Positions 1 to 32,834 of a stretch of DNA of 46,229 nt are shown here, piece by piece. The stretch is from positions 1-46,229 of IMG/VR virus record IMGVR_UViG_3300032293_000850; one strand, written 5' to 3'. A program made the translations under genes and the position numbers. Below the pieces are notes generated by a model that saw only the letters and a program-made list of their open reading frames with translations, made no database searches and was not told where the DNA came from. Numbering within the stretch: position 1 is the first letter of the stretch; each line of letters begins with the position of its first letter. This stretch comes from a virus.

Positions 1-1809
1 ATATATTTTAACTCCTTCTTTTTTACCTTTAACAGCAATACAATCCAATTCAACAACAGAATATTCATCTTTTACTTGTTCAGCTGTGAGTGGTCCAAGA
101 ATAATTTTAACACCATAGGGTTTACTTTGTCCTTCAAGTCTTGATGCTAAATTGACCGAATCACCAAGACAAGTGTAATCAAATCGTTGACTTGAACCCA
201 TATTACCAACAACAACGGTGCCTGTATTAATACCTAAACCCATACCAAAGGCAGGAATACCTTCTTGCTCAATTTCTCTATTAAATTCATCTAAACTATT
301 CATCATCTGTAATGCAGTTTTAACTGCCATCTTAGCATGATTGGGTTCATCTACAGGTGCGTTCCAAAATGCCATTTGAGCATCACCAATATATTTGTCT
401 AATGTTCCATTGTTCTCTATAATCTTTGCTGTCATTGCAGTCATGTATCGATTCATAATCTTAGTAAGACCTTGAACATCTTTACCATAGTGTTCGGAAA
501 TTGTTGTAAATCCACGAACATCCGTAAACATAATAGAAAGTTCTCTTGATTCTCCACCAAGAACTAACAGTTCTGGATTCTTCTGCAATTTTTCTACTAG
601 TGCTGGAGACAAATATGTTCCAAATTGTTTTTTGATTTGGAGTTTTTGTTTGAGCTCGGACAAAAATTTGACTGTGTATCCATGAGCGTAACAAAGCGTA
701 ATGGTGAGTATAGGAAATACAGCATCAAAAAGATATTGGTGTCCCAAAAATAATTGTTTGGTGCCAAAGTAAGTAAATACGGCAATTGTGATTGGTGCGA
801 TGTATCCATGCGTATACCTCGTAAAGAAAAGAGCTAATAAGCAAGCAATAAATGTATATAATATTTCTGCACCGTCAGCATAATCTGTTCGAGATATATT
901 AGTACCTGAAATTACAGTATCTAATACGGCTGCTTGTAAATAATGTGGATAGACTGACCCCATAGATGTTCCGACAGGGTTGTTAAGACCCTTTGCGGTA
1001 ACACCGATGATGACAATTCCTCCTTTGAAATCATTGGGTAAGTTGTTGGCACTATGTTGAATTGGTTTTGTTGACCAGTCAACCCAAATTCGACCCATGT
1101 TGTCCGTTGTAATTTTACCAAATTTTGGAATTCTGACGGCTTCGATTCCGTATTCAGTAACTTTGACTTGGAAACTTGGGTCTCCGCTGGCGACCCGCAA
1201 TGTTTCAAGACTAATGCTCGGATACAACTTTTGTTGTGAGCTGACGACCATAGGAACTCGTCTGGTAACGCCATCAAGTTCTGGTAAGGTATTAACAATG
1301 CCAACGCCAGCAGCAGTTGAATTAAATGATTGTATATTAGGTTCAATGTTTTCATATTTTATTCCTACATCTTCACCACCAATTACGGAAACACCTGGCC
1401 TAAATGGTGTATGTTTCTGTTTGAAGTGTGTGTCATTTGTGCCTGTATGTGGTATAACAACAGGAACTTGTTTAAATGTTTGTGCTAAATCCAAATCTTG
1501 ACCAAAACGGTCAGACTCAGGCATATAGATATTAAAGACAACCAGCCCAGCACCACGAGCATAAACATCATTAATAAGTTTGGAATATTCTCTGCGAGGG
1601 AACGGGAATTGTCCTTTTTGTCGAATAGTTTCGTCATCTATATTTACAACATGTACCTGTTGAGATACAGTTGTCTCCTTTGAGGTTATTAATTGGTCGA
1701 AATAACGAAGTCGAACAGATTCCAAAAAAATAGGGTCTGCAATCCGTATGGCAAGTAATAACAACAATGTGATTACAGCTGTCCATGGAGAGAATAATAT
1801 TTTTTTCAT
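1..1809 (-). CDS. CHASE2-domain class III adenylate cyclase (3' end beyond window)
   Basis: This reading frame is open from its ATG at 1809 to the window edge (603 codons, no stop). The order is an N-terminal membrane segment (about residues 10-25), a CHASE2-type extracytoplasmic sensor (about 30-320), a hydrophobic block of probably three membrane segments (about 330-405), then a class III cyclase domain (about 420 onwards). The expected catalytic residues are all visible: metal aspartates D430 (FTDVRGF) and D476 (KYIGDA), adenine-selecting K472 and D544 (FDYTCLGD), and transition-state N553 and R557 (VNLASRLEG). The K/D pair predicts ATP rather than GTP as substrate, giving cAMP. Its ATG overlaps the stop of the upstream FecR gene (ATGA), so the two are translationally coupled. 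FecR proteins and CHASE2 cyclases are often neighbours in bacteria. An active cyclase in a phage is unusual; activity is inferred, not shown. Confidence 0.9.
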   Translation of the reverse strand, partial: MKKILFSPWTAVITLLLLLAIRIADPIFLESVRLRYFDQLITSKETTVSQQVHVVNIDDETIRQKGQFPFPRREYSKLINDVYARGAGLVVFNIYMPESDRFGQDLDLAQTFKQVPVVIPHTGTNDTHFKQKHTPFRPGVSVIGGEDVGIKYENIEPNIQSFNSTAAGVGIVNTLPELDGVTRRVPMVVSSQQKLYPSISLETLRVASGDPSFQVKVTEYGIEAVRIPKFGKITTDNMGRIWVDWSTKPIQHSANNLPNDFKGGIVIIGVTAKGLNNPVGTSMGSVYPHYLQAAVLDTVISGTNISRTDYADGAEILYTFIACLLALFFTRYTHGYIAPITIAVFTYFGTKQLFLGHQYLFDAVFPILTITLCYAHGYTVKFLSELKQKLQIKKQFGTYLSPALVEKLQKNPELLVLGGESRELSIMFTDVRGFTTISEHYGKDVQGLTKIMNRYMTAMTAKIIENNGTLDKYIGDAQMAFWNAPVDEPNHAKMAVKTALQMMNSLDEFNREIEQEGIPAFGMGLGINTGTVVVGNMGSSQRFDYTCLGDSVNLASRLEGQSKPYGVKIILGPLTAEQVKDEYSVVELDCIAVKGKKEGVKIY

Positions 1810-2876
1810 TTTTGTATAATAGTAATGTTAGTTGTACCACCAGTATTAACTTTTTGGTATATTGGCGAACTATCTTGTGTAATATTTAGTACGAGGTTGG
1901 ATTCTCTATTTACCGTTACGATTGCCGTGTGAGCCGCAACCTTCATTAATATCAACTTACCATCTTCAGTTACAGCATATTTTAATCCACTTCCCTCATT
2001 GTATCCTGGAAGCATAGTACTTTGTTCTAATATAGATTCCTGTGACGCTGATAATGCTCTATTGCTCTCATCGAGCATATTTGGTAATAGATCGACATCG
2101 AGGTAATTCATGCCCAATAAATCATATATTAGGTAATCTTTATTCAACTCATCGAACTTTAATAAATCTTTATCCAAAAAGTTTACATCAAGCGGATTAA
2201 TTTTATTGTTGGATAATTTATCTTCTTCTTTTATTTCTTTTGGTGGAGAAACAATTAAAAGATTGTTAATATTACTTGGATCGATTAAAACAATCACAGG
2301 AGCACTTGGTGGAGTTGATAGAGAATTGACAACTGTAGTTTGAAATGCTTGATCCATATACACCTCGCCCGCATCATTTTTTACAGAGATTGCTCCAGTA
2401 ACGCATGATTTCTTATCACAAGAGGGTAACAACATAATCATACTTCTACCCAACTCATCTACTGTCATAGAAAAGTCAGTGCCTCTAACTGCAATGGTGG
2501 CAGTAGGAGTACTCACAGCAACTTGTTGTGGATTTGTTTTTGCAATTTGACCACTAGCATAACGAGCAGTGCCCATTACAACTTTCATAGCAAGTTTTCC
2601 CGAACCTTTCTTTGGATCATACACGAAGTCATCCACCACAAGTTTTGATTGCTCAGTGATGTTGACTGTCGTGTTGTCCTCAAAGGTCAGCTTTGCTTTG
2701 GCTTTTGCAGTAATAATAGTATCATTCATCTCTACTCCAGAGCCAACCTTAGCTGAAATAGAATTTTTATTGCGTACTATCTCAGTTGGACCAGATTGTT
2801 CTGTGACCTTACCTACGGCCGCAAAACAATTATGGTTGCTGAGTAATATTAAGAGTAATGCCTGAGCCAGACGCAT
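1806..2876 (-). CDS. FecR-domain periplasmic protein with curlin-like tail
   Basis: A protein of 356 aa with an N-terminal signal peptide (hydrophobic stretch ending near CFAA). The FecR domain spans about residues 25-150: a region typical of FecR/SH3-like beta repeats, then the hallmark AVRGTDFSMTVDE. FecR domains are periplasmic and are usually signal-transfer or surface-associated modules. The middle (about 200-270) is rich in Leu, Asp and Asn. The last 30 or so residues (LNITQDSS ... TNITIIQK) look like a curlin repeat, linking it to the preceding gene. Its start lies inside the end of the curlin-like gene (47-nt overlap) and its stop overlaps the cyclase start. It could couple curli assembly to the CHASE2 cyclase; that role is inference. 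Confidence 0.8.
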   Translation of the reverse strand: MRLAQALLLILLSNHNCFAAVGKVTEQSGPTEIVRNKNSISAKVGSGVEMNDTIITAKAKAKLTFEDNTTVNITEQSKLVVDDFVYDPKKGSGKLAMKVVMGTARYASGQIAKTNPQQVAVSTPTATIAVRGTDFSMTVDELGRSMIMLLPSCDKKSCVTGAISVKNDAGEVYMDQAFQTTVVNSLSTPPSAPVIVLIDPSNINNLLIVSPPKEIKEEDKLSNNKINPLDVNFLDKDLLKFDELNKDYLIYDLLGMNYLDVDLLPNMLDESNRALSASQESILEQSTMLPGYNEGSGLKYAVTEDGKLILMKVAAHTAIVTVNRESNLVLNITQDSSPIYQKVNTGGTTNITIIQK

Positions 2877-3468
2877 TTACAGTACTTTGTTGCACTATCG
2901 CACCACTCTGTGTCACATTAATATTATTAGTTGCACCAGATGTTGCCAATGAGTTTACGGTAATATCGGCTTGATGAGAACCGCCTGTAGCACTATGAGT
3001 AATGTTGGTATAATCTCCAACAATACTTACAACGCTGCGTTGATTTCCACCTGAACCGAGAGCTTGAGTTACTGTATTATTATCACCTTGAATAGTGGTG
3101 GTAATTGTTGCACCAGAACACCCAGCAGAACTAGAAGTTCCACATGTAATCGATTGTATATTTGTGCTACCAACTGTTGATAATGTAACAGCTGCAGCAC
3201 TTCCATTTACTGTCATGTCCAATTCATTATTAGATCCTTGTTGAGTAATAGTAGCAGCAACCGAGTCACCATAAATGATGGCCGGATTTAACAATGTACC
3301 AATTCGGTTATCGGAACCGTCTTGTGTTATGTTGATTGTTGCACTATCACCGCTTTGGTCTAAATATAATTCATTTGCCTTAACGATATTCAAACCAAGA
3401 ACAGTCATTAATACTACTGCGAGTACTTTGCTCGACAACCCGCAAACGCCTGTCGTTCTAGTTTTCAT
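2830..3468 (-). CDS. Curlin-repeat secreted protein (CsgA/CsgB-like)
   Basis: A protein of 212 aa with a signal peptide (basic start, hydrophobic core about residues 13-28, cleavage near VKA). The mature part is rich in Asn, Gln, Ser, Thr and Gly and contains degenerate curlin-type strands with Asn/Gln ladders: INITQDGSDNRIG, ATITQQGSNNELD, TTIQGDNNTVTQ, YTNITHSATGG, NNINVTQSG and LNITQQP. In curli, such repeats (N-x5-Q-x4-N-x5-Q type) form stacked beta-strand-turn-beta-strand amyloid. The repeats here are irregular, and two Cys (in SITCGTSSSAGC) are unusual for curlins. It sits directly downstream of csgG in the same operon, so it is the likely cargo of that channel. It could instead be a non-amyloid adhesin built from the same repeat. 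Confidence 0.75.
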   Translation of the reverse strand: MKTRTTGVCGLSSKVLAVVLMTVLGLNIVKANELYLDQSGDSATINITQDGSDNRIGTLLNPAIIYGDSVAATITQQGSNNELDMTVNGSAAAVTLSTVGSTNIQSITCGTSSSAGCSGATITTTIQGDNNTVTQALGSGGNQRSVVSIVGDYTNITHSATGGSHQADITVNSLATSGATNNINVTQSGAIVQQSTVNASGSGITLNITQQP

Positions 3469-4247
3469 TTGTTTTCCTTTTTAAATTTCCAGATACCTTT
3501 TCTTTCTCCTTCCATAATCAACTCGTATACGCCTTGTTCAATGGCAACTCGAACAGCATATGTTGTTGGTTCATTCAATGCAGCGCCATTTTCTAATTCA
3601 AGTGATTTTGTTCCTTGGTCAACAAATCTTAAAACTCCTACATTGTGAGCGGTACTGTAAATAGTTTTTGATACAGCAGTCGTCAGCAATACTTCTCCTG
3701 ACGCCACACTTACGATTCTTAATGAAATGACTACTTCATCCACTCGATATTGTTGACTACCACCAATTCCTAAAAATCGTGCTCCATTTCCGCCTGAACG
3801 AATATTGGTATCATAACCAACTATACCACCTTCAATTACTATACCAGCAACAGACAATGGCCTTAAAGGCTTTGCATCTTTACCTTCATATACGTCACGC
3901 TGATTGCGTATTAGTTGTCTTTCTTTGATAAGATTATCGAGACCAACTCGTTCAACAACTTTAAACCATCCTTTAGAATCCTGTAGTGCTTTAATTAAAA
4001 ACACTTCAGATCCTTGTGTAACTGCGGAAGAAAATAACGCCAATCTTTCGCTTGATTTTTTTTGGCCAGTTAAATCTCTAAACCCATAAACTGCCATAGT
4101 TAATGGAGGACCATCAAGTTCTGGCAATCTTTCTACTAATGATTTTCGTGGCTCAAGTTTTATTGGTTCTTCTTGAGATGCCATCATGTGAATGTTTGCA
4201 CATCCAGATAACATAGTAATTATGAATAACACTATAAGTTTATTCAT
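3465..4247 (-). CDS. csgG: CsgG-family curli secretion channel lipoprotein
   Basis: A protein of 260 aa, near the usual CsgG length. It has a lipoprotein signal with lipobox MLSGC (Cys16), so the mature protein should be lipidated and placed in the outer membrane, where CsgG forms a nonameric beta-barrel that exports curlins. Family blocks are clear: AVYGFRDLTGQ, ALQDSKGWFKVVER, GLDNLIKERQ, EGGIVGYDTN, RSGGNGARFLGIGG, LRIVSVASGEVL and NEPTTYAVRVAIEQGVYELI. By eye, the E. coli pore-constriction segment (Tyr51, Asn55, Phe56) aligns with SERLALFS, so only the Phe seems kept. It starts 2 nt after csgF and overlaps the curlin-like gene by 4 nt. CsgG homologues are known in HTVC008M-like phages. 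Confidence 0.93.
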   Translation of the reverse strand: MNKLIVLFIITMLSGCANIHMMASQEEPIKLEPRKSLVERLPELDGPPLTMAVYGFRDLTGQKKSSERLALFSSAVTQGSEVFLIKALQDSKGWFKVVERVGLDNLIKERQLIRNQRDVYEGKDAKPLRPLSVAGIVIEGGIVGYDTNIRSGGNGARFLGIGGSQQYRVDEVVISLRIVSVASGEVLLTTAVSKTIYSTAHNVGVLRFVDQGTKSLELENGAALNEPTTYAVRVAIEQGVYELIMEGERKGIWKFKKENK

Positions 4248-4248
4248 A

Positions 4249-4695
4249 TTAAAATGAAAATGAGGCTATGGGAACAGTAATGTCGGTTCGATTCCCGTTG
4301 GTTTCAGTGATTGTTAATGTGACATCAACTCCGGTTTTAACCCAAGAAATATTTGTTCCTTGAAAATCCAGAGAACCCGAAGTACCGCCACCTTCGGCAA
4401 ACATTGCGTCAGCTAATTGTTTTGATAACTGTGCGTAAATACGAGATTCTACATTAACCAAAAACTTTGATAAATTTGTATTTTTTGATTCTCGTTCAGC
4501 TTTATCAGAAGCTGCTTTTTGTTCATCTTTAATTTTTGCTTTACGTTGTGCTTCAATTGTTTCAATAGTTAAAACATGGGTTGACCAACCTATACCATTA
4601 AAAGCGGGTGAATTGAATTGATGAATTAACTCAGATGCATATGAATTTGAACTAATCAGTAGGAGGATTACTAGAATCTTTTTTATGTTTTTCAT
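4249..4695 (-). CDS. csgF: CsgF-family curli assembly protein
   Basis: A protein of 148 aa with a signal peptide (cleavage near NSYA-S). The mature N-terminus ELIHQFNSPAFNG resembles the CsgF N-terminus (aromatic, Asn-Pro-x-Phe-Gly), the part of CsgF that inserts in the CsgG barrel and forms a second constriction. A charged linker (about residues 50-75) follows, then a C-terminal beta-rich part (VDVTLTITETNGNRTDITV) matching the CsgF tail. In bacteria CsgF sits at the cell surface and links nucleation to the pore. It is immediately upstream of csgG, and its start overlaps the end of the upstream membrane-protein gene by 44 nt. No csgE, csgC or csgD is visible in the window. Confidence 0.82.
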   Translation of the reverse strand: MKNIKKILVILLLISSNSYASELIHQFNSPAFNGIGWSTHVLTIETIEAQRKAKIKDEQKAASDKAERESKNTNLSKFLVNVESRIYAQLSKQLADAMFAEGGGTSGSLDFQGTNISWVKTGVDVTLTITETNGNRTDITVPIASFSF

Positions 4696-4930
4696 CTTCT
4701 TTAATTTCTCGCATCATTAATACGATGTTAATTTTCTGATTCAATCTTATCAAATCATTATCTAACATCCTGACACGGTCAATCAAGGCAATCAAAACAC
4801 CACTGGCTTCACTAAGAACGGGTTTAATTTCTTTTGTTACCCAAGTCCACACATAATAAATGAAGTAACCCATGCCACCAGCAGCAACAATTGGGAAACC
4901 ATATTTGTTAACTAATTCTACTATATCCAT
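4652..4930 (-). CDS. Small membrane protein, paralogue of the 5123-5401 protein
   Basis: A protein of 92 aa. The N-terminus has one membrane segment (about residues 10-30: GFPIVAAGGMGYFIYYVWTW). An amphipathic, likely coiled-coil part (about 40-75) and a short charged tail follow. It shares layout and residues with the 92-aa product at 5123-5401 (GFP..AA...GYF, then SG.. .ALIDRV/ALDNRV and a LIRL/VIRI block), so the two are duplicates. Its size and layout resemble holin-like BhlA/UviB-type proteins, but that is only a structural comparison. It overlaps csgF by 44 nt. Confidence 0.7.
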   Translation of the reverse strand: MDIVELVNKYGFPIVAAGGMGYFIYYVWTWVTKEIKPVLSEASGVLIALIDRVRMLDNDLIRLNQKINIVLMMREIKEDEKHKKDSSNPPTD

Positions 4931-4936
4931 TTTTTA

Positions 4937-5122
4937 TTAATGTCTTTTTACAAAGGACACACGACCAGTCGAACCAACTTTTATTTCAAACAAATCTCCT
5001 TGTTTCCAAGATGCTGGTAAATTACCATAAACATTTTCATTTGTTTGTTCTTTTAATTTTAAATCTCTGTCAAGAATAAGAGCATTTTCTCCAATATCTA
5101 GAACATAGTCTACATACATCAT
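4937..5122 (-). CDS. Conserved small protein of unknown function
   Basis: A protein of 61 aa lying between the two paralogous membrane-protein genes. It starts directly after the stop of the upstream gene and ends 6 nt before the next. It has no signal peptide or membrane segment. The C-terminal part (QGDLFEIKVGSTGRVSFVKR) reads like two or three beta strands of a small barrel. I do not recognise the family; its tight position in the late operon supports it being real. Confidence 0.6.
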   Translation of the reverse strand: MMYVDYVLDIGENALILDRDLKLKEQTNENVYGNLPASWKQGDLFEIKVGSTGRVSFVKRH

Positions 5123-5401
5123 TTAATCTCTCCTAGCATCATTCTTGCCGTCTGCACGAGCAATACGGTCGATATCAGGTTTGACACCCATAGCACTTGA
5201 CATTAGAGTATCAATTCTGATAACATCATGGTTCATTGTTTTAACACGATTGTCTAAGGCGGTAATAATACCACTTAAACTTTTGACAGAACCGGTAACA
5301 CCGGCCAGAATAAATTTTAGAGTTAGGAACACAAAGTAACCTGCCGCAAACGCTGCGGCCATTGGGAAACCTAATTCGGCAACAATCTTAAAAAAGTCCA
5401 T
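5123..5401 (-). CDS. Small membrane protein, first gene of the leftward late operon
   Basis: A protein of 92 aa. One hydrophobic N-terminal segment (about residues 8-32, GFPMAAAFAAGYFVFLTLKF) is followed by an amphipathic helix with a heptad-like LSGIITALDNRVKTMNHDV and a charged C-terminus. It is a paralogue of the product at 4652-4930. It is the first gene after the minus-strand late promoter at 5472-5479, 71 nt from that promoter to its ATG. A holin-like or channel-partner role beside csgF/csgG is plausible but unproven. Confidence 0.7.
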   Translation of the reverse strand: MDFFKIVAELGFPMAAAFAAGYFVFLTLKFILAGVTGSVKSLSGIITALDNRVKTMNHDVIRIDTLMSSAMGVKPDIDRIARADGKNDARRD

Positions 5402-5471
5402 TTTTATATTGACAATCGTTGGTTATTGATATATAATCAGTAAATCATCAATATAAATTTCAGTACACACT

Positions 5472-5479
5472 TATTTATA
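5472..5479 (-). promoter_or_regulatory. T4-type late promoter for the curli operon
   Basis: On the minus strand these bases read TATAAATA, a perfect match to the T4 late promoter element recognised by gp55-programmed RNA polymerase. It lies in the divergent gap and points towards the leftward operon, 71 nt before its first ATG. No other promoter-like element of similar quality is visible upstream of that operon. Confidence 0.7.
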
Positions 5480-14670: not shown

Positions 14671-15387
14671 ATGTCTGCTACCGTGATTATACCAACTACT
14701 GGATCACCAGAAGTTAAAACTGCCGTTGAATCTGTTCTGAATCAAAGTCATCCTACCAAATGTTATGTTGTGATTGATGGTGATGAGAATGTAGAAAAAA
14801 CATTAGAAGTGTTAGATTCAACCGTGAATGATGAACGAGTATACATTTGTTCGTTACCAATCAATGTCGGTGCCAAAGGTTTCTATGGTCACCGTGTCTA
14901 TGCGGCTTTCACGCACCTAATCGATACAGAGTATGTTGGGTACCTAGACCAAGATAATTGGTTATATCGGTCTCATGTGGAAAACTGCATCAAAACAATT
15001 AACTCAACAAATTTAGATTGGTGTTATTCTCTACGACAAATATATAACAAACAAGGTAAGATGGTTGCTTTTGATGATTGTGAATCTCTTGGTATCTGGC
15101 CAACATATCATGGCCATCATCACATAGATACTAATTGTTACTTTATTAAAACTGATGTGGCAATCAAACTCGCAAGTGTTTGGCACGGTGGTTGGGGACA
15201 AGATAGAGTGTTTTTACAAGCAATCACAAAACACTTTCCTAAATTCTATTGCACAGGTGAATATTCAACTTGTTATAGAGTAGATGGTGGCCAAGGTTCT
15301 GTTACGGCAGAATTCTTTGAAAATGGTAATAAAATAATGAATGAAAAATATAATGGAGTTTTCCCATGGCGAGCAAAAAAGATTTAA
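14671..15387 (+). CDS. Family 2-like glycosyltransferase
   Basis: A protein of 238 aa. The GT-A fold signature is visible: ATVIIPTTG at the N-terminus, SVLNQSHPTKCYVVIDGDEN for the nucleotide-binding strand, and a DxD-like YLDQDNW (about residue 92). A later GGWGQDRVFLQAI resembles the acceptor-side ED motif region. It would transfer a sugar from a nucleotide donor. It opens a run of glycan genes reaching 21282. Confidence 0.8.
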   Translation: MSATVIIPTTGSPEVKTAVESVLNQSHPTKCYVVIDGDENVEKTLEVLDSTVNDERVYICSLPINVGAKGFYGHRVYAAFTHLIDTEYVGYLDQDNWLYRSHVENCIKTINSTNLDWCYSLRQIYNKQGKMVAFDDCESLGIWPTYHGHHHIDTNCYFIKTDVAIKLASVWHGGWGQDRVFLQAITKHFPKFYCTGEYSTCYRVDGGQGSVTAEFFENGNKIMNEKYNGVFPWRAKKI

Positions 15388-16223
15388 TCATTGGTGCATT
15401 TACAAATTACAATTACAATCAATTAAAACCTTGGGTTGAATCGATTGATAAACTACAGGGTTCAAACAATATCGAAAAGGTGATGGTTGTTGGTAATGCT
15501 TCACAAGAAACTAAAAATGAATTAACAAAAAGAAACTTCATTTTAGTTGATATGCCGCAGGCAAATATTCCTGTGCATGTTCTCCGATTTCTCTCCATCT
15601 ATGAATACCTAAGAACCAATCATAACAAATATCGTTATGTGGTTACTACTGATGTTAAAGATGTTTACTTTCAAATGAATCCGTTTCAATGGTTAGAGAA
15701 CAATCTAGGATCCTGTAAATTGGTTGCCGGTTCAGAAGGTATGAGATACAAAGATGAGCCTTGGGGTAATGAGAACTTAATGCAAGCCTACGGTCCGTAT
15801 GTACACAATCTATTCAAAGATAATGTAATATACAATGTAGGAACGATTGGTGGTGAATCGGAGTATGTTAAAGACTTAGTGTTCAACATCTTCACTAATG
15901 CCACCAATCGTCCAATTCCTATCGTTGACCAAGCGGTATACAATGTGTTAATCAATACTGTGCCGTATAGCGACATTACTTATTTTGCATATCAATTGGA
16001 TGGATGGGCATGCCAGGCCGGCACAACAGTAGATCCATCCAAAATAGAACAGTTTAGGCCAAACCTACTGGAAGCTGAGCCTAAATTTGAGGAGGGTGTT
16101 GTTAAAACATCTTTGGGACAACCTTTCTGTATTGTGCATCAATATGACCGAGTACCTGAATGGAAAAAGTTTGTTGAGAAAAAATATGGGCAAGAAGATT
16201 TAATTACTTTTAGGACAACATAA
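15366..16223 (+). CDS. Glycosyltransferase-like protein (GT-A type)
   Basis: A protein of 285 aa. VVTTDVKDVYFQMNPFQW (about residues 95-112) is a metal-binding Asp motif in a GT-A context, and YNVGTIGGESEYVKDLV resembles the NxGxxGG loop of sugar transferases that scan a membrane or glycan acceptor. The start has its own GGAG site and lies 22 nt inside the preceding gene. Acceptor and sugar are not predictable. Confidence 0.65.
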   Translation: MASKKDLIIGAFTNYNYNQLKPWVESIDKLQGSNNIEKVMVVGNASQETKNELTKRNFILVDMPQANIPVHVLRFLSIYEYLRTNHNKYRYVVTTDVKDVYFQMNPFQWLENNLGSCKLVAGSEGMRYKDEPWGNENLMQAYGPYVHNLFKDNVIYNVGTIGGESEYVKDLVFNIFTNATNRPIPIVDQAVYNVLINTVPYSDITYFAYQLDGWACQAGTTVDPSKIEQFRPNLLEAEPKFEEGVVKTSLGQPFCIVHQYDRVPEWKKFVEKKYGQEDLITFRTT

Positions 16224-16750
16224 TGGACTTTGAAAAAGAATATCAAGATGCGTGTGTGAGAGTTACAGACATACACGAACATTTACCTATCATATCGGAA
16301 TTAACTTCGGAATGTAAACACGCAACAGAACTTGGTGTGGGTTGGGCTCAAAGCACTAGAGCCTTTTTACGACATGATGTTGAATTACACAGTTACGAAT
16401 ATTCACCTTTGCCGGGAATTATCGACTTTTTTATTCAAGCAAAAAAATCTGGCCGAAATGCAACACTACATATTGATGATACACGCAAAGTAGAAATTGC
16501 AGAAACCGATATTATGTTGGTAGATAGTTTACATGTTTATGAACAAGTAAAAACTGAACTGGAATTGCACGCTGGTAAAGTAAAAAAGTATCTGTTGTTT
16601 CATGATACCACACTATTTGCAGACAATGGTGAATTTGGTGGCAAAGGTATCTGGCCAGCTGTTCAAGAATTTATCGACTCACATCCAGAATGGCAACTGA
16701 TTGAGAGAAGAACTAATAATAATGGTTTAACAATTTTAAAGAGAGTATAA
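16223..16750 (+). CDS. Class I SAM methyltransferase-like protein
   Basis: A protein of 175 aa. ATELGVGWAQSTRAFL resembles the glycine-rich motif I of SAM-dependent methyltransferases, followed by the acidic strand LHSYEYSP, motif DIMLVDSLHVYEQVKTELEL, and LLFHDTTLFAD. This small family is common in phage and bacterial glycan clusters and is likely to methylate a sugar. It starts in a TAATG overlap. Confidence 0.65.
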   Translation: MDFEKEYQDACVRVTDIHEHLPIISELTSECKHATELGVGWAQSTRAFLRHDVELHSYEYSPLPGIIDFFIQAKKSGRNATLHIDDTRKVEIAETDIMLVDSLHVYEQVKTELELHAGKVKKYLLFHDTTLFADNGEFGGKGIWPAVQEFIDSHPEWQLIERRTNNNGLTILKRV

Positions 16751-17751
16751 TGAAAATCTTTATTACAGGAATTGCAGGTTTCCTAGGTAGCCACCTTGCA
16801 GATAGAATGTTGGATTTAGGACACGAAGTTCTTGGTAATGACACTCTTATTGGTGGTTATCGTGACAATGTTCCAAAGAAAGCAAAATTATATGTTGTCG
16901 ATTGTTGTGATATTGAAAAGATGACATATGTTATGGAAGGTTGTGATATTGTAATTCATACTGCTGCTACTGCACATGAAGGCCTTTCTGTATTCAGTCC
17001 TAGTTTTATTACCAAAAATATTTTTGAAGCCTCTGTTGCAACAATCTCCGCAGCAATACAAAACAAAGTAAAACGATTCGTATATTGTACCTCAATGGCA
17101 AGATATGGTAATCAACCACATCCATTTACAGAAGATATGGCACCACGACCAGTAGACCCATATGGTGTTGCAAAAGTTGCTGGTGAAGATGTATTAAAGA
17201 TTCTTGCAGAAACACACGGCATGGAATGGAACATTGCTGTACCACATAACATCGTTGGTCCTCGCCAAAAGTTTGATGATCCATTCCGTAATGTAATGAG
17301 TATTATGGCTAATCGTAATCTCCGTGGTAAACCTGCAATCATTTATGGTGACGGCAATCAAACTCGTTGTTTCTCGTACATTGCTGATTGTATTAATTGT
17401 TTGGAGAAGATGGCATTGGATCCAAAGGTTGTTGGTGAAATTATCAACATTGGTCCTGATGATGGTACAATCTCAATTAAAGAATTGGCAGTATTGGTTG
17501 CAAAAGAAACTGGATTTGAAGGTGAAGCAATTCATGTGCCAGACCGACCAAGAGAAGTTAAACACGCAGATTGCTCTGCTGATAAGGCAAGATGGTTACT
17601 ACAATATGAAACCAAAACTACATTAGAAAAGTCTATTCAAGAAACTGTATCATACATTAAGAAAAAAGGTCCTAGAGAATTTGACTATTCTTATCCAGTG
17701 GAGATTATCAATGAAAAAACTCCTAAAACATGGAAAGACAGGTTAATGTAA
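16750..17751 (+). CDS. NAD-dependent sugar-nucleotide epimerase/dehydratase (SDR)
   Basis: A protein of 333 aa, normal length for extended SDR enzymes. The Rossmann motif ITGIAGFLGSHL (TGxxGxxG, residues 5-16) is followed by VDCCDIE, VIHTAATAHEG, VYCTSMARYG (active-site Ser/Thr) and the catalytic pair DPYGVAK (YxxxK). GPRQKFDDPFRN and YGDGNQTRCFSYIADC are substrate-binding blocks of GalE-like proteins. It would interconvert or dehydrate a nucleotide-sugar for the neighbouring transferases. The stop overlaps the next ATG. Confidence 0.9.
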   Translation: MKIFITGIAGFLGSHLADRMLDLGHEVLGNDTLIGGYRDNVPKKAKLYVVDCCDIEKMTYVMEGCDIVIHTAATAHEGLSVFSPSFITKNIFEASVATISAAIQNKVKRFVYCTSMARYGNQPHPFTEDMAPRPVDPYGVAKVAGEDVLKILAETHGMEWNIAVPHNIVGPRQKFDDPFRNVMSIMANRNLRGKPAIIYGDGNQTRCFSYIADCINCLEKMALDPKVVGEIINIGPDDGTISIKELAVLVAKETGFEGEAIHVPDRPREVKHADCSADKARWLLQYETKTTLEKSIQETVSYIKKKGPREFDYSYPVEIINEKTPKTWKDRLM

Positions 17752-21353: not shown

Positions 21354-21361
21354 TATAAATA
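21354..21361 (+). promoter_or_regulatory. T4-type late promoter
   Basis: A perfect TATAAATA, 45 nt upstream of the next ATG in the 21283-21406 gap. A second near-match (TATAAATC, 21337-21344) lies just before it. It separates the glycan genes from the internal-head-type genes, as expected for a switch to late transcription. Confidence 0.75.
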
Positions 21362-21406: not shown

Positions 21407-22597
21407 ATGTTATCATTTAAGTCATTCTTAAAAGAAGAATCTGAAACGGGTTCTGAACTTAAACACATTCATCATGCGGAAGATAGACCTTTAATGCATG
21501 GACATTCTGGTTTTGAACACGCTCATGCCGCTTTGATGAAAGCCCATGCACACATGACTGGTGGACATAAAAGTACCAATCTGACAATGAAATATGATGG
21601 TTCACCATCGATTGTTTTTGGTCATCATCCTAAGAATAATAAATTCTTTGTTGCAACCAAATCGGCTTTCAATAAGAATCCAAAGATTAACCACACAGAA
21701 GCTGATATTGATAGAAATCATGGCCACGCACCAGGATTAGCAAAAACACTTAAACACGCTCTCAAACATCTGCCAAAAGTAACACCCAAACAAGGAGTAT
21801 TTCAAGGCGACTTGATGCACCATGCAGATACCAAAACACTACACGAAGGTTATCTAGCAGAAGCTAAAGGTGATGTTTCTTTCACACCAAATACCATCAC
21901 ATATACCGCTAAAGGTAAAGAAGCCGACAAGATTAAAAAATCTAAAGTTGGTGTTGTGGTGCATACTCAATATAGTAATGACTTAAAACACAATACTCCT
22001 CATGTGGATACCAGTAAATTTAAAGAGCATCCAGATGTACACATTCATGGTGCTGAACATGATACAAGTAAAGTTAAACACTCAGCTGAGAACGAGAAAC
22101 ACTTTCAGAAACATATGGCTGCAGCCAAAGAAATTCATGACACTCATGGTCACAAAATGTATGATTCTATACACAAAAATCATAGTGGAGAAACTGGCCA
22201 CCTATCGACATACATAAACAAGACAGTAAGACACGATGAAGTGCCTAGTGTAAAAGGTTTTAAAGAACACTTGCATGATGTTCATTCTAAAATGGCTGCA
22301 AAAGTTAAAACTGATAAATCCAAATCAGAAAAGACTAAAGAAGGAACTTCTCAGATTTCTCATGTAGAAAAACACAAAGCACATTATGGAAACTTATTGT
22401 CAATGCATCACCATTTACACCAAGCCAAAAATGCTTTGGTTAAATCATTAGAAACACATGAAGGACATTACCAACACCACATTGAAGGTAAAAAGTCTAA
22501 ACCTGAAGGTTTCGTAGTTCATCACGACAATCAACCAACCAAATTGGTTAACCGTGCTGAATTTGCTAAACAAAATTTATTAAAAGTGCGTAAATGA
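21407..22597 (+). CDS. His-rich internal-head-type protein with ligase-like nucleotidyltransferase motifs
   Basis: A protein of 396 aa, extremely rich in His and Lys. The N-terminus MLSFKSFLKEE matches the capsid-targeting type MKTYQEFIAE of T4 internal proteins. Motifs of the DNA/RNA ligase superfamily are visible in order: K62-Y-D-G-S-P (motif I, KxDG), VFQGDLM (residues 131-137, motif III-like), PEGFVV (366-371, motif IV) and TKLVNR with K379 (motif V). This suggests an enzyme that forms a Lys-AMP or Lys-NMP intermediate, perhaps packaged in the head. The late promoter upstream supports structural timing. Activity and substrate are unknown. Confidence 0.55.
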   Translation: MLSFKSFLKEESETGSELKHIHHAEDRPLMHGHSGFEHAHAALMKAHAHMTGGHKSTNLTMKYDGSPSIVFGHHPKNNKFFVATKSAFNKNPKINHTEADIDRNHGHAPGLAKTLKHALKHLPKVTPKQGVFQGDLMHHADTKTLHEGYLAEAKGDVSFTPNTITYTAKGKEADKIKKSKVGVVVHTQYSNDLKHNTPHVDTSKFKEHPDVHIHGAEHDTSKVKHSAENEKHFQKHMAAAKEIHDTHGHKMYDSIHKNHSGETGHLSTYINKTVRHDEVPSVKGFKEHLHDVHSKMAAKVKTDKSKSEKTKEGTSQISHVEKHKAHYGNLLSMHHHLHQAKNALVKSLETHEGHYQHHIEGKKSKPEGFVVHHDNQPTKLVNRAEFAKQNLLKVRK

Positions 22598-24579
22598 AAT
22601 CTTTTTTAGAATTAGTCGAAGAAACCAAACAAGGTGAAAAACACCATGTGATGACCTTTGGTCGGATGAATCCTCCAACTACAGGACATTTAAAGTTAAT
22701 CGACAAGGTAAAAGAAGTTGCTGATAAGAACAAAGCATCACACTCTGTCGTGGTTTCTCACTCACAAGATTCTAAGAAGAATCCATTATCTGGTGAAACT
22801 AAGGTCAAACACCTTAAAAGATATTCTCCAGGTACTCATATTGAATCGTCCTCAAAAGAACATCCAACATTCTTACACCACGCAGAGAAGTTACATAAGG
22901 CCGGTGTAACTCATTTACATATGGTCGTTGGTTCTGACCGTGTTAAAGAAATGAAAGAAAAGCTGCACCAGTATAATGGCACACATAAAGGTGCCCTATA
23001 CAACTATAAGAAGATTACAGTACACTCAGCAGGTCATCGTGATCCTGATGCAGAAGGTTCTGAAGGTATGTCAGGCACCAAAATGCGTAGTCATGCGGCT
23101 TCAGGTAATTATAAAGAATTTAAAAAAGGTGTTCCTGGTCATGTTGCCGACCACCATGCAAAAGAACTCTATCACGATACACGCAAAGGCATGGGAATAC
23201 ACGAAAATATCAACCGTGGACTATTCAAGGCTATCTTTGTTACTGGTGGTCCAGGTTCAGGTAAAGATGTTATCATTCGTGAAGCCATTGCTGAATCACG
23301 AGCAGTAGAATTGAATGCTACGCAAGCCTTTGATTACCTTGCTGATAAACAGAAACTTGCAGAAAAGACAAGTGATTTCCGCAGAGAGTCCATTCGAAAT
23401 CGTGGTCCTCTAATCATTAATGGACCAGCAGATAGCATTGATAAGATTAACCATATTAAAGAAGAACTGGAAGAATTAGGTTATTCCACAATGATGGTGT
23501 TTGTCAATACAACAAACGAAATTAGTCAAGAAAGAAATACCAAATTATCTAGGATGATGGTCGAATCTATTAGATATGATAAGTGGTCGCAAGCTCAGAA
23601 AAACAAAAGACTTTTTTCAGAATCTTTTGATGACTTTATACAAATTGACAATACTGGTTCATTGGAATCAATCGAGCAAGATATCACAAATACCTACATA
23701 AATATAAATGCATTTATAGAAAACAACTCCTATAATGATGTGTCATTATCATGGCTCGAAAACCACGGTAAGTTAAATATAGGTGATAAACTTGATATTA
23801 TTAAGGAAGAAAGAAATGTTAAAAGCGTTAATAAATTTATTCAAATCAAAACCAACCGAGGACTCCAAGCCGCTGGACTCGATAGTATCCCAGCCGACAA
23901 TCGTGCAGGAGACCCCAACGCAGACGACATCAAGTGGGACGCACCAAAAAGAACAAAAACCTACATCTTCCGCACCTATAGCGAAGAAAGCAAACCCACG
24001 CTCACGATCAACCCAGTCCCAAAAGAAGCCAACTTCTCCAAAGACAAAGAAAAAGTAAAGAATAAAAAACGATATTCTGATGCTCCAACAGTAAGTCAAA
24101 GACTACGAAACACCACGGGTGTTGGACCAGAATTCGATACACGCCAGCAGGGAACAGTATATCCCATGTCCGGTCTAGGCGATGTAACATATAGAGAACA
24201 AAAAGAATTTAATAGTTTTAGAAAAACGATTAAAGAGTACAAAGGATTTCAGAATGATACATCCATATCAGATATGGGAGTAGGTGGCGTTCTGAATGGT
24301 GCGACAAATTTTGAGCCCATGCAGTCTTATAAAGATGCAGAACGAAATATTGGTGTGGCTATTACCAAAAAGAAAAAACCTGTAAAAGAAGATGCGGTGA
24401 GTAAGTTGGAAACTGGTTTAACTAAATTACAAAAAACCGATTATGACACTATTGATAAGTTGATGACAAGAATTTCTAAAGATGAGAAAACAACAGGTAA
24501 AGATTTACATGACGATTTTGTAAAAAAACACGGTAAGGTACCGGACAATTGGATAAAAGACAAAAAACAGGAGAAATAA
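22594..24579 (+). CDS. NadR-like nucleotidyltransferase-kinase with capsid-targeting-like start
   Basis: A protein of 661 aa. The N-terminus MKSFLELVEE is capsid-targeting-like. Residues about 18-200 form a nucleotidyltransferase: TFGRMNPPTTGH (T29/T30-x-G31-H32, the T/HxGH motif) and SGTKMR (160-165, equivalent to ISSTxxR). Residues about 212-370 form a P-loop kinase-like domain with GGPGSGKD (218-225). This order resembles NadR, which makes NAD from nicotinamide riboside, but substrate specificity is not readable. The C-terminal 290 residues are basic and low-complexity, with VGPEFDTRQQGTVYPMSGLG and GVLNGATNFEPM as conserved-looking blocks. Codons at 23870-24060 are C/G-ending, unlike the rest, where a second frame is open. 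Confidence 0.65.
   Translation: MKSFLELVEETKQGEKHHVMTFGRMNPPTTGHLKLIDKVKEVADKNKASHSVVVSHSQDSKKNPLSGETKVKHLKRYSPGTHIESSSKEHPTFLHHAEKLHKAGVTHLHMVVGSDRVKEMKEKLHQYNGTHKGALYNYKKITVHSAGHRDPDAEGSEGMSGTKMRSHAASGNYKEFKKGVPGHVADHHAKELYHDTRKGMGIHENINRGLFKAIFVTGGPGSGKDVIIREAIAESRAVELNATQAFDYLADKQKLAEKTSDFRRESIRNRGPLIINGPADSIDKINHIKEELEELGYSTMMVFVNTTNEISQERNTKLSRMMVESIRYDKWSQAQKNKRLFSESFDDFIQIDNTGSLESIEQDITNTYININAFIENNSYNDVSLSWLENHGKLNIGDKLDIIKEERNVKSVNKFIQIKTNRGLQAAGLDSIPADNRAGDPNADDIKWDAPKRTKTYIFRTYSEESKPTLTINPVPKEANFSKDKEKVKNKKRYSDAPTVSQRLRNTTGVGPEFDTRQQGTVYPMSGLGDVTYREQKEFNSFRKTIKEYKGFQNDTSISDMGVGGVLNGATNFEPMQSYKDAERNIGVAITKKKKPVKEDAVSKLETGLTKLQKTDYDTIDKLMTRISKDEKTTGKDLHDDFVKKHGKVPDNWIKDKKQEK
23816..24058 (+). 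CDS. Possible overlapping gene nested in the NadR-like gene
   Basis: An 80-aa frame inside the preceding gene, with a good ribosome site (AAGGAAG, 8-9 nt before the ATG). The product starts MLKALINLFKSKP and continues as a Pro/Thr/Ser/Lys-rich, disordered-looking chain ending in KKK. Base composition is visibly richer in G+C than flanking sequence, as expected where two frames are constrained. Near-matches to the late promoter (CATAAATA at 23697-23704, TATAAATG at 23703-23710) lie about 110 nt upstream. The role is unknown and it may be fortuitous. Confidence 0.4.
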   Translation: MLKALINLFKSKPTEDSKPLDSIVSQPTIVQETPTQTTSSGTHQKEQKPTSSAPIAKKANPRSRSTQSQKKPTSPKTKKK

Positions 24580-30413: not shown

Positions 30414-30908
30414 ATGTGGTTCTTATCATTCATACCTGATTGGATTTTACAATGGGCAATACACGGTTTAGTCATACTTGGACTGTTGTTGACTTTTATA
30501 GGTTCGTTAGTTAGATTTATACCTGTAATACAACCATACGCTTTAGTTGGCAGACAATTAGGTATAGTGTTATTAGTAGTTGGTGTATTCTTTGAAGGAG
30601 GATATGCCACAGAAATGTCATATCGTGCTAGAATAGCCGAAATGCAAGCAAAGATAAAAGAAGCAGAAATTAAATCTGCAAAGGTCAATGAAAAGTTGGC
30701 AAATGAAGTTAGTAAAAATAAAGAGTTGATTAAAGAGAAGGTGAATAGAAATGCTAGGGATATTGAAGCAAAGAGAGAAGCTATTAATTCTAAGTGTGAG
30801 TTGTCTGATGACGCTTGGATGCTCTACAACCGTGCCGTTGAGCCAAAAATTTCCAGAGGTTCCTCAAGTGCTAATGGAGCCCGCTCCGGCTCTAAAGCCT
30901 CTAAGTGA
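30414..30908 (+). CDS. Probable inner-membrane spanin (Rz-like)
   Basis: A protein of 164 aa. Two N-terminal hydrophobic segments (about residues 10-35 and 45-65) are followed by a long coiled coil (about 70-125, IAEMQAKIKEAEIKSAKVNE onwards). Its 3' third contains the start of a separate lipoprotein gene in another frame, the classical nested Rz/Rz1 arrangement. i-Spanins normally have one membrane segment; here two are seen, which is a deviation. It begins the lysis island. Confidence 0.65.
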   Translation: MWFLSFIPDWILQWAIHGLVILGLLLTFIGSLVRFIPVIQPYALVGRQLGIVLLVVGVFFEGGYATEMSYRARIAEMQAKIKEAEIKSAKVNEKLANEVSKNKELIKEKVNRNARDIEAKREAINSKCELSDDAWMLYNRAVEPKISRGSSSANGARSGSKASK

Positions 30909-31044
30909 AGATAAAAAGACATTAGCAGACCTGTTACAAAATGCTAATGAGAATTACGGACTGTATTATGAGTTACAGGATAGATATAATGCATGGCAGT
31001 TATGGTATAAACAACAGAAACAAATATTTGATAGTGTAAAATGA
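30751..31044 (+). CDS. Probable outer-membrane spanin lipoprotein (Rz1-like), nested
   Basis: A protein of 97 aa starting inside the Rz-like gene in a different frame, behind AAGGTGA. A signal sequence with a hydrophobic core (LLILSVSCLMTLG) leads to Cys24, a loose lipobox (TLGC; position -3 is not the usual Leu). Proline-rich residues follow (about 28-50), typical of Rz1. It extends well past the end of the Rz-like frame. Together the two would bridge and fuse inner and outer membranes at lysis. Confidence 0.6.
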   Translation: MLGILKQREKLLILSVSCLMTLGCSTTVPLSQKFPEVPQVLMEPAPALKPLSEDKKTLADLLQNANENYGLYYELQDRYNAWQLWYKQQKQIFDSVK

Positions 31045-32094: not shown

Positions 32095-32208
32095 ATGGTA
32101 GATACACTTTTTTGGGTTTTAGTTGGCGCATTTGTAGGTTGGCATTTTCCAGAACCTTTTTGGGCTAAAGCAATTAAAGCTAAAATTTTAGGAATGATCA
32201 AGAAATAA
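32095..32208 (+). CDS. 37-residue membrane peptide
   Basis: This short gene has a strong ribosome site (AGGGGG) before the ATG at 32095, and its stop overlaps the endolysin start (TAATG). The product MVDTLFWVLVGAFVGWHF starts with a single membrane segment and ends in a basic tail (KAIKAKILGMIKK). Its place directly before the endolysin suggests a holin- or antiholin-like role, which is inference. Confidence 0.65.
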   Translation: MVDTLFWVLVGAFVGWHFPEPFWAKAIKAKILGMIKK

Positions 32209-32834
32209 TGGAACTGACAAAAGATCAACTGAAGCAATTGCTTCCAAAGAATCCATACATTGACCAATGGCACAATGCATTGTCACAATTGTTACCCGAT
32301 TATGGTATCAATACACCTCAACGCATTGCTGCCTTCATAGCACAATGCGCTCACGAATCCGGTAATTTTGTATTTCTCAAAGAGAATTTAAATTATCGTG
32401 CGCCGACTTTGCGTAAACTCTTTGCCAAGTATTTTCCAACAGATGAATTGGCCAATGAGTATGCAAACAAACCAAATAAACAAGAAGCAATTGCAAATCG
32501 TATCTATGCTAATCGTATGGGTAATGGTGATGAAGCTTCTGGTGATGGTTTCAGATATTGTGGTCGTGGCCTAATTCAATTGACAGGTAAAGAGAACTAT
32601 TCTTGGTTTGCTGCTTCAATTGAAGTATCTGTTGAAGAAGCATCCGAATATTTACAAACTTTTGAAGGTGCTGCTCAATCTGCTTGCTGGTTCTGGGAAA
32701 CAAACAACCTAAATCAATGGGCTGACAAAGGCGACATATTAACATTAACAAAGCGTATCAATGGTGGTACCATTGGCCTTGAAGATAGAATCAAACATTA
32801 TGAACACGCACTTCATGTATTAGGAGTCCATTAA
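32208..32834 (+). CDS. GH19-type endolysin
   Basis: A protein of 208 aa of the chitinase-19 fold used by phage lysozymes. The catalytic acid is E50 in QCAHESGNF, with E59 in KENLNY as second carboxylate. Further family blocks are YCGRGLIQLTGKENY and the C-terminal TKRINGG..GLEDR. No signal peptide, so release needs a holin or other pore. It cleaves the glycan strands of peptidoglycan. Confidence 0.92.
   Translation: MELTKDQLKQLLPKNPYIDQWHNALSQLLPDYGINTPQRIAAFIAQCAHESGNFVFLKENLNYRAPTLRKLFAKYFPTDELANEYANKPNKQEAIANRIYANRMGNGDEASGDGFRYCGRGLIQLTGKENYSWFAASIEVSVEEASEYLQTFEGAAQSACWFWETNNLNQWADKGDILTLTKRINGGTIGLEDRIKHYEHALHVLGVH

Follow-up and report, generated by a model that had tools for sequence, protein, structure and literature searches.

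Curli-type (type VIII) secretion modules are already known from marine phages. A pelagiphage module comprising CsgF, CsgG, CsgA/B, FecR and adenylate cyclase genes was described in 2022 for both podo- and myophages, where it is preceded by one or two genes termed histidine kinase and where a second curlin gene is frequent but not universal (PMC9599517). CsgF and CsgG have likewise been reported together with a curli-associated protein (PMC7029224), and the paper describing Methylophilales phage Melnitz, which stated that csgA and csgB were absent, proposed a role in lysis (PMC9004378). Beyond these three papers, no in-depth treatment of phage curli modules was apparent in the part of the literature covered by our search.

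Here we describe a module of this kind in a viral contig of 46,229 nt (IMG/VR record IMGVR_UViG_3300032293_000850), referred to below as the window. Its gene content and order closely follow those of Pelagibacter phage HTVC008M (KC465899), in which two 93-aa proteins, CsgF, CsgG, a curlin, a FecR-domain protein and a cyclase are encoded in the same order, with the curlin gene annotated as “curlin minor subunit CsgB” and a late motif upstream of CsgF. The two phages share 48% identity in CsgG and 27% in the curlin-like protein, which we call CURL1. The HTVC008M module lies between genes for a ssDNA-binding protein and a putative tape measure protein, whereas that of the window adjoins a DNA polymerase gene. 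Phage Melnitz (MZ577097) has the gene order of the window and an annotated FecR gene, and its CsgG is 47% identical to that of the window. Both HTVC008M, in which it sits between FecR and the cyclase, and Melnitz, which carries two “curlin associated repeat” genes, possess a second curlin gene that the window lacks; among the relatives collected in this study, L024 and L037 have this gene in the position seen in HTVC008M. The window thus has the phage type VIII order of CsgF, CsgG, curlin and FecR with the cyclase downstream, and differs from the published pelagiphage module in that its relatives include contigs of 300-364 kb and in that the two genes preceding CsgF encode no detectable kinase domain.

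The kind of module, its gene order and the presence of a cargo gene within the operon are therefore already published for marine phages. The first-pass annotation had taken the cargo to be the new part, a view that does not survive comparison with the curlin genes annotated in HTVC008M and Melnitz or with the whole module described in PMC9599517. As far as these sources go, what is new is the curlin-like tail of the FecR protein, the exchange of genes as a block and the large size of some carrier phages; a kinase-free pair of small proteins, and an endolysin and spanin-like pair encoded elsewhere in the window, which weaken the case for a lysis pore, are new details as far as we have found. 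Alphaproteobacterial curli operons (loci L140-L142) resemble the window in having CsgF-CsgG with curlin genes nearby, and no such FecR gene or pair of small proteins was found within 18 kb in these three loci, which represent few genomes. One bacterial curlin protein (L141:6691-7599) ends in a two-cysteine motif, GCVISSGCGAVSVTQ, that strongly resembles the end of the second curlin protein of phages, and it is possible, judging from this likeness, that it is a trace of where the phage protein originated.

Extent of the module and its promoters

The genes for CsgF (4249..4695), CsgG (3465..4247) and CURL1 (2830..3468) lie on the minus strand exactly where the first-pass annotation had placed them, with a 1-nt gap between CsgF and CsgG and a 4-nt overlap between CsgG and CURL1, and they form a real and intact operon on the contig of a T4-like phage. 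The interval of 2830-4695 given for the system does hold these three genes and is nevertheless too short, as the module extends over about 1-5401. Upstream, on the same strand, a candidate T4-type late-promoter motif, TATAAATA (5472..5479), heads the operon and is followed by the genes for two small membrane proteins of 92 aa each, S92b (5123..5401; phrog_18771, E 1e-34), which is the operon's first gene, and its paralogue S92a (4652..4930; phrog_18771, E 7.5e-37). Downstream, also on the minus strand, are the genes for a FecR-domain protein (1806..2876), which overlaps CURL1 by 47 nt, and for a protein with a CHASE2 sensor (2.7e-37) and a class III adenylate/guanylate cyclase domain (Guanylate_cyc, 1.1e-21), which directly overlaps the FecR ORF and is cut by the window edge (1..1809). 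A poorly conserved 61-aa ORF is called between S92b and S92a (4937..5122, minus strand), with 49.7% nucleotide identity to its nearest relative, in L024, compared with 93-97% for both of its neighbours.

S92b has a single hydrophobic N-terminal segment followed by a probably helical tail. Among isolate phages, S92a and S92b are restricted to the CsgG-bearing HTVC008M and Melnitz strains, and searches of Pfam, NCBIfam and PHROGs placed the pair in no family other than phrog_18771. Judged by position, they probably correspond to the “histidine kinases” of PMC9599517; none of 22 S92 members contains a kinase domain by Pfam or NCBIfam.

The window contains two exact copies of the motif TATAAATA, where chance alone would give 4.8; one of them, on the strand of S92b, ends 70 nt ahead of the start of that gene. 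In the relatives it is found within 150 nt upstream of S92b on the coding strand in 10 of 56 genes against 0.22 expected from its density, an enrichment of about 45-fold. It also precedes CsgF in 4/68 and the cyclase in 2/54 relatives, and was found upstream of none of their S92a, CsgG, CURL1 or FecR genes. The suggestion that the operon is expressed late in infection is probably correct. A perfect sigma-70 consensus (TTGACA-17-TATAAT; 5409..5437, plus strand), called by its match to the consensus, points towards the DNA polymerase side and away from the module; from these two motifs, both recognised by sequence alone, two divergent units probably meet here.

Elsewhere in the window, the second copy of TATAAATA (21354-21361) lies just before an ORF at 21407 of unknown function (phrog_455). 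Glycosyltransferase and nucleotide-sugar epimerase genes at 15366-17751 may constitute a glycan-modifying island, and a 661-aa protein (22594-24579) has both a cytidylyltransferase-like domain and a weak region of zeta-toxin/AAA type. Scans of the window for tRNAs and Rfam families were both empty.

The left 5.4 kb is encoded on the strand opposite to the rest of the window and carries genes of bacterial type, as might be seen if it were a misassembly or bacterial contamination. The junction between the cassette and the DNA polymerase gene recurs, however, at about 73-89% sequence identity in four contigs from four different metagenomes (L023, L024, L025 and L037), the GC content is continuous and the best relatives are phages. 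We consider the recurrence of the junction sufficient to exclude misassembly, which the first-pass annotation had named as something that would refute its proposal.

Conservation and exchange among relatives

With CsgG as query, 33 IMG/VR loci were retrieved; the CURL1 alignment retrieved 280 relatives, of which 80 were kept, and removal of duplicates left 67 distinct viral loci. A match in Salmonella phage S.Kent, a draft contig of 1.5 kb that carries no annotation, was left out of the evidence. In every one of the 67 loci CURL1 comes immediately after CsgG, an adjacency far above chance, and FecR follows CURL1 in 66. CsgF was found in 65; 53 loci have the S92 pair within reach, and an equal number the cyclase. 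The contigs of these relatives are as long as 364 kb, and five of them, measuring 337-364 kb, carry the gene for an endolysin that shares 70-79% identity with that of the window, from which we infer that the window may be one piece of a similarly large phage genome.

Nucleotide comparison with L024 revealed identity that shifts abruptly at gene borders. The gene adjoining DNA polymerase (91.7%), S92b (97.5%), S92a (93.2%) and the cyclase (95.9%) are highly similar, whereas CsgF (71.7%), CsgG (71.9%), CURL1 (55.7%) and FecR (66.9%) are far less so, marking out a putative exchanged block at 1806..4650 on the minus strand. The nearest relatives of the genes are split in the same way: L024 supplies those of S92a, S92b and the cyclase, at 97-99% amino acid identity, and other phages supply those of CsgF, CsgG, CURL1 and FecR. 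Given low identity inside the block, high identity outside it and this split, the simplest reading is that the four genes have been replaced as one unit between phages.

Two further observations concern the relatives. In 17 of the 67 loci an extra secreted protein of ∼620-710 aa is encoded between CsgF and CsgG or after FecR (for example L005:7992-10001, L006:8109-9962 and L009:12602-14731). It contains a threonine-rich linker and a C-terminal domain that ends in F and has the look of an autotransporter beta-barrel; it has no meaningful match in Pfam or PHROG, and weakly matches a protein of cyanophage DSL-LC03 annotated as an autotransporter. A metagenome bin assigned to Rhodobacteraceae (G008) holds four different phage-type cassettes on separate contigs (L136-L139), which are probably binned phage DNA.

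The pore, its curlin-like cargo and the FecR protein

The checks proposed in the first-pass annotation included profile searches of the three core proteins. CsgG, predicted to be an outer-membrane lipoprotein secretion channel with the lipobox LSGC, matched Pfam PF03783 at 2.3e-49 (168 bits, cut-off 20.8) and aligned over its full length (residues 1-256) with solved E. coli CsgG structures at 2.8e-47. CsgF, the putative pore-associated chaperone, matched PF10614 at 7e-17 (62.2 bits, cut-off 25.8) and, along its pore-binding N-terminal segment, weakly resembled solved CsgF; in E. coli this segment lies inside the CsgG barrel. By these matches both are clear members of their families, and with a channel, CsgF and a curlin-repeat cargo the locus has components expected of a type VIII secretion system.

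No cassette protein has a Pfam match to CsgE, the gate of the pore, and the window holds part of a phage genome. This absence is not decisive, since other phage modules likewise lack CsgE (PMC9599517). It leaves room for a channel that may stay open, as would suit a pore through which nutrients or cofactors are taken up while the cell is infected (PMC7029224, PMC9599517). Uptake would not require CsgF, CURL1 or FecR, which are nevertheless conserved with CsgG, and we regard such a function as very unlikely.

By itself CURL1 falls short of the Pfam curlin cut-off (17.4 against 20.7 bits), so the label curlin-like required further evidence. The protein carries a signal peptide, and its Q-x-G-x-x-N repeat positions are kept across 28 aligned relatives, in which many of the Q, G and N residues, as well as C109 and C117, are invariant. 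An AlphaFold2 model from 26 sequences (mean pLDDT 83.7, pTM 0.77; alignments for structure prediction were built from the window and IMG/VR loci alone) is a ladder of regularly spaced short beta strands of about seven residues each. Searched with Foldseek, this model best matched phage proteins that bear the name “Curlin associated” (E 4e-10, TM 0.63); against the PDB it gave at most weak matches to beta-helix proteins such as SufD, with no good match to a solved amyloid structure (CsgA fibril, E 1.4). The first-pass annotation had made its curlin-like call depend on a beta-solenoid prediction and on homologues beside csgG; the predicted fold is of beta repeats, and the homologues stand next to CsgG in all 67 viral loci. 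With conserved family repeats, a beta-repeat model and curlin-associated structural matches, the assignment of CURL1 as a curlin-repeat cargo protein holds at the level of sequence and model, and with the family matches of CsgG and CsgF it bears out the proposal that a T4-like phage encodes a curli-type export system together with a curlin-like cargo for it. CURL1 is also the most divergent of the genes compared, with a mean pairwise identity of 52% against 72% for CsgG and 76% for S92b, as would be expected of an exposed part.

The FecR protein is composed of a signal peptide, consistent with secretion, a FecR domain (PF04773, 5e-11) and a curlin-like C-terminal repeat (1809..1907, minus strand). 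Its last ∼30 residues follow the pattern x-I-x-Q-D-G...V-N-x-G-G...I-x-I-x-Q, and two of its glutamines, Q334 and Q355, do not vary among the 24 sequences aligned. A tail of this kind ends every complete FecR protein examined among the relatives; the strict pattern missed nine proteins, eight of them conservative variants and one a truncated ORF. Profile comparison of the tail with CURL1 (hhalign) scored 24.4, compared with at most 19.5 in 300 column shuffles and at most 14.3 for FecR segments short of the tail. The hhalign probability was low (11-26%), so that the likeness is support for, and not proof of, common descent. The tail was modelled as beta repeats with block-mean pLDDT of 63-88, which ranks it with the better-predicted parts of an otherwise poor model. 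FecR has been discussed as an iron regulator (PMC9599517), and no sigma factor gene lies beside the FecR gene in the locus. Predicted secretion, the curlin tail and co-exchange with the fibre gene better suit a part in the fibre, and we therefore think that this protein is probably a fibre component rather than an iron regulator.

Possible functions of the module

Building on gene content and order, the curlin nature of CURL1 and the FecR tail, the late motif and the block exchange, all established from sequence, we consider it probable that this is a phage type VIII secretion module that acts late and secretes a surface fibre. The module would be switched on late in infection; CURL1, and probably the FecR-curlin protein too, would pass the Sec system and then the CsgG/CsgF pore, and the exported proteins would assemble into beta-solenoid fibres at the cell surface. 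For the FecR protein, the C-terminal curlin repeat would most likely be the means of joining the fibre, in which the protein would act as anchor, cap or nucleator. What the phage would most likely gain is a remodelled surface on the infected cell, for example one that excludes competing phages or holds cells and debris together. This reading is favoured by the conservation of cargo and FecR with the pore, the beta-repeat model of CURL1, the enriched late motif, the four-gene exchange unit, the divergence of CURL1 and a FecR tail score beyond all shuffles. Against it stand the lack of CsgE in the cassette, the CURL1 score below the Pfam cut-off and the want of a good match to a solved amyloid.

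One form of the surface-fibre reading, put forward in PMC7029224 and PMC9599517, is aggregation or “sibling capture”, in which fibres hold infected and healthy cells together so that progeny find hosts. A complete set of secretion and fibre genes would fit this purpose. Melnitz-infected cultures showed no clumping (PMC9004378), which counts against surface fibres in general as well as against this form of them, and we judge sibling capture rather unlikely. A more elaborate proposal, which we offer tentatively, is a two-part fibre with FecR as subunit or anchor, encoded by a serotype-like cassette of four genes that would set which rivals or cells the surface admits.

The first-pass annotation had also raised an outer-membrane exit pore, and the Melnitz proposal is similar in giving CsgG/CsgF mainly the role of a lysis pore, with depolarisation of the cell or the onset of progeny release brought about through a gated channel (PMC9004378). 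The late-promoter motif would fit such a role, as would the S92 matches to holin-like families, very weak and not significant as they are (phrog_4898, E 0.0055; YvrJ, E 0.0038). The window, however, has lysis genes of its own: a strongly matched endolysin (32208-32834; phrog_181, 9e-75) and a membrane protein with a weak match to Rz-like spanins (30414-30908), whose gene is overlapped out of frame by that of a lipoprotein (30751-31044) in an Rz/Rz1 arrangement. Overlapping pairs of an Rz-like protein and a lipoprotein are typical of spanins. With these genes present, CsgG is probably dispensable for disruption of the outer membrane, which weakens the idea of a lysis pore. Relatives larger than 300 kb also encode an endolysin, and a lysis pore leaves the retention of cargo and FecR unexplained. 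We consider it quite unlikely that lysis is the main function.

The role of curli modules in phages has been an open question since at least 2020. The present analysis narrows it, in that the cargo and FecR genes are inseparable from the pore, four genes appear to move together, the FecR protein resembles a part of the fibre and lysis has separate genes. A surface-fibre function thereby becomes directly testable with four genes.
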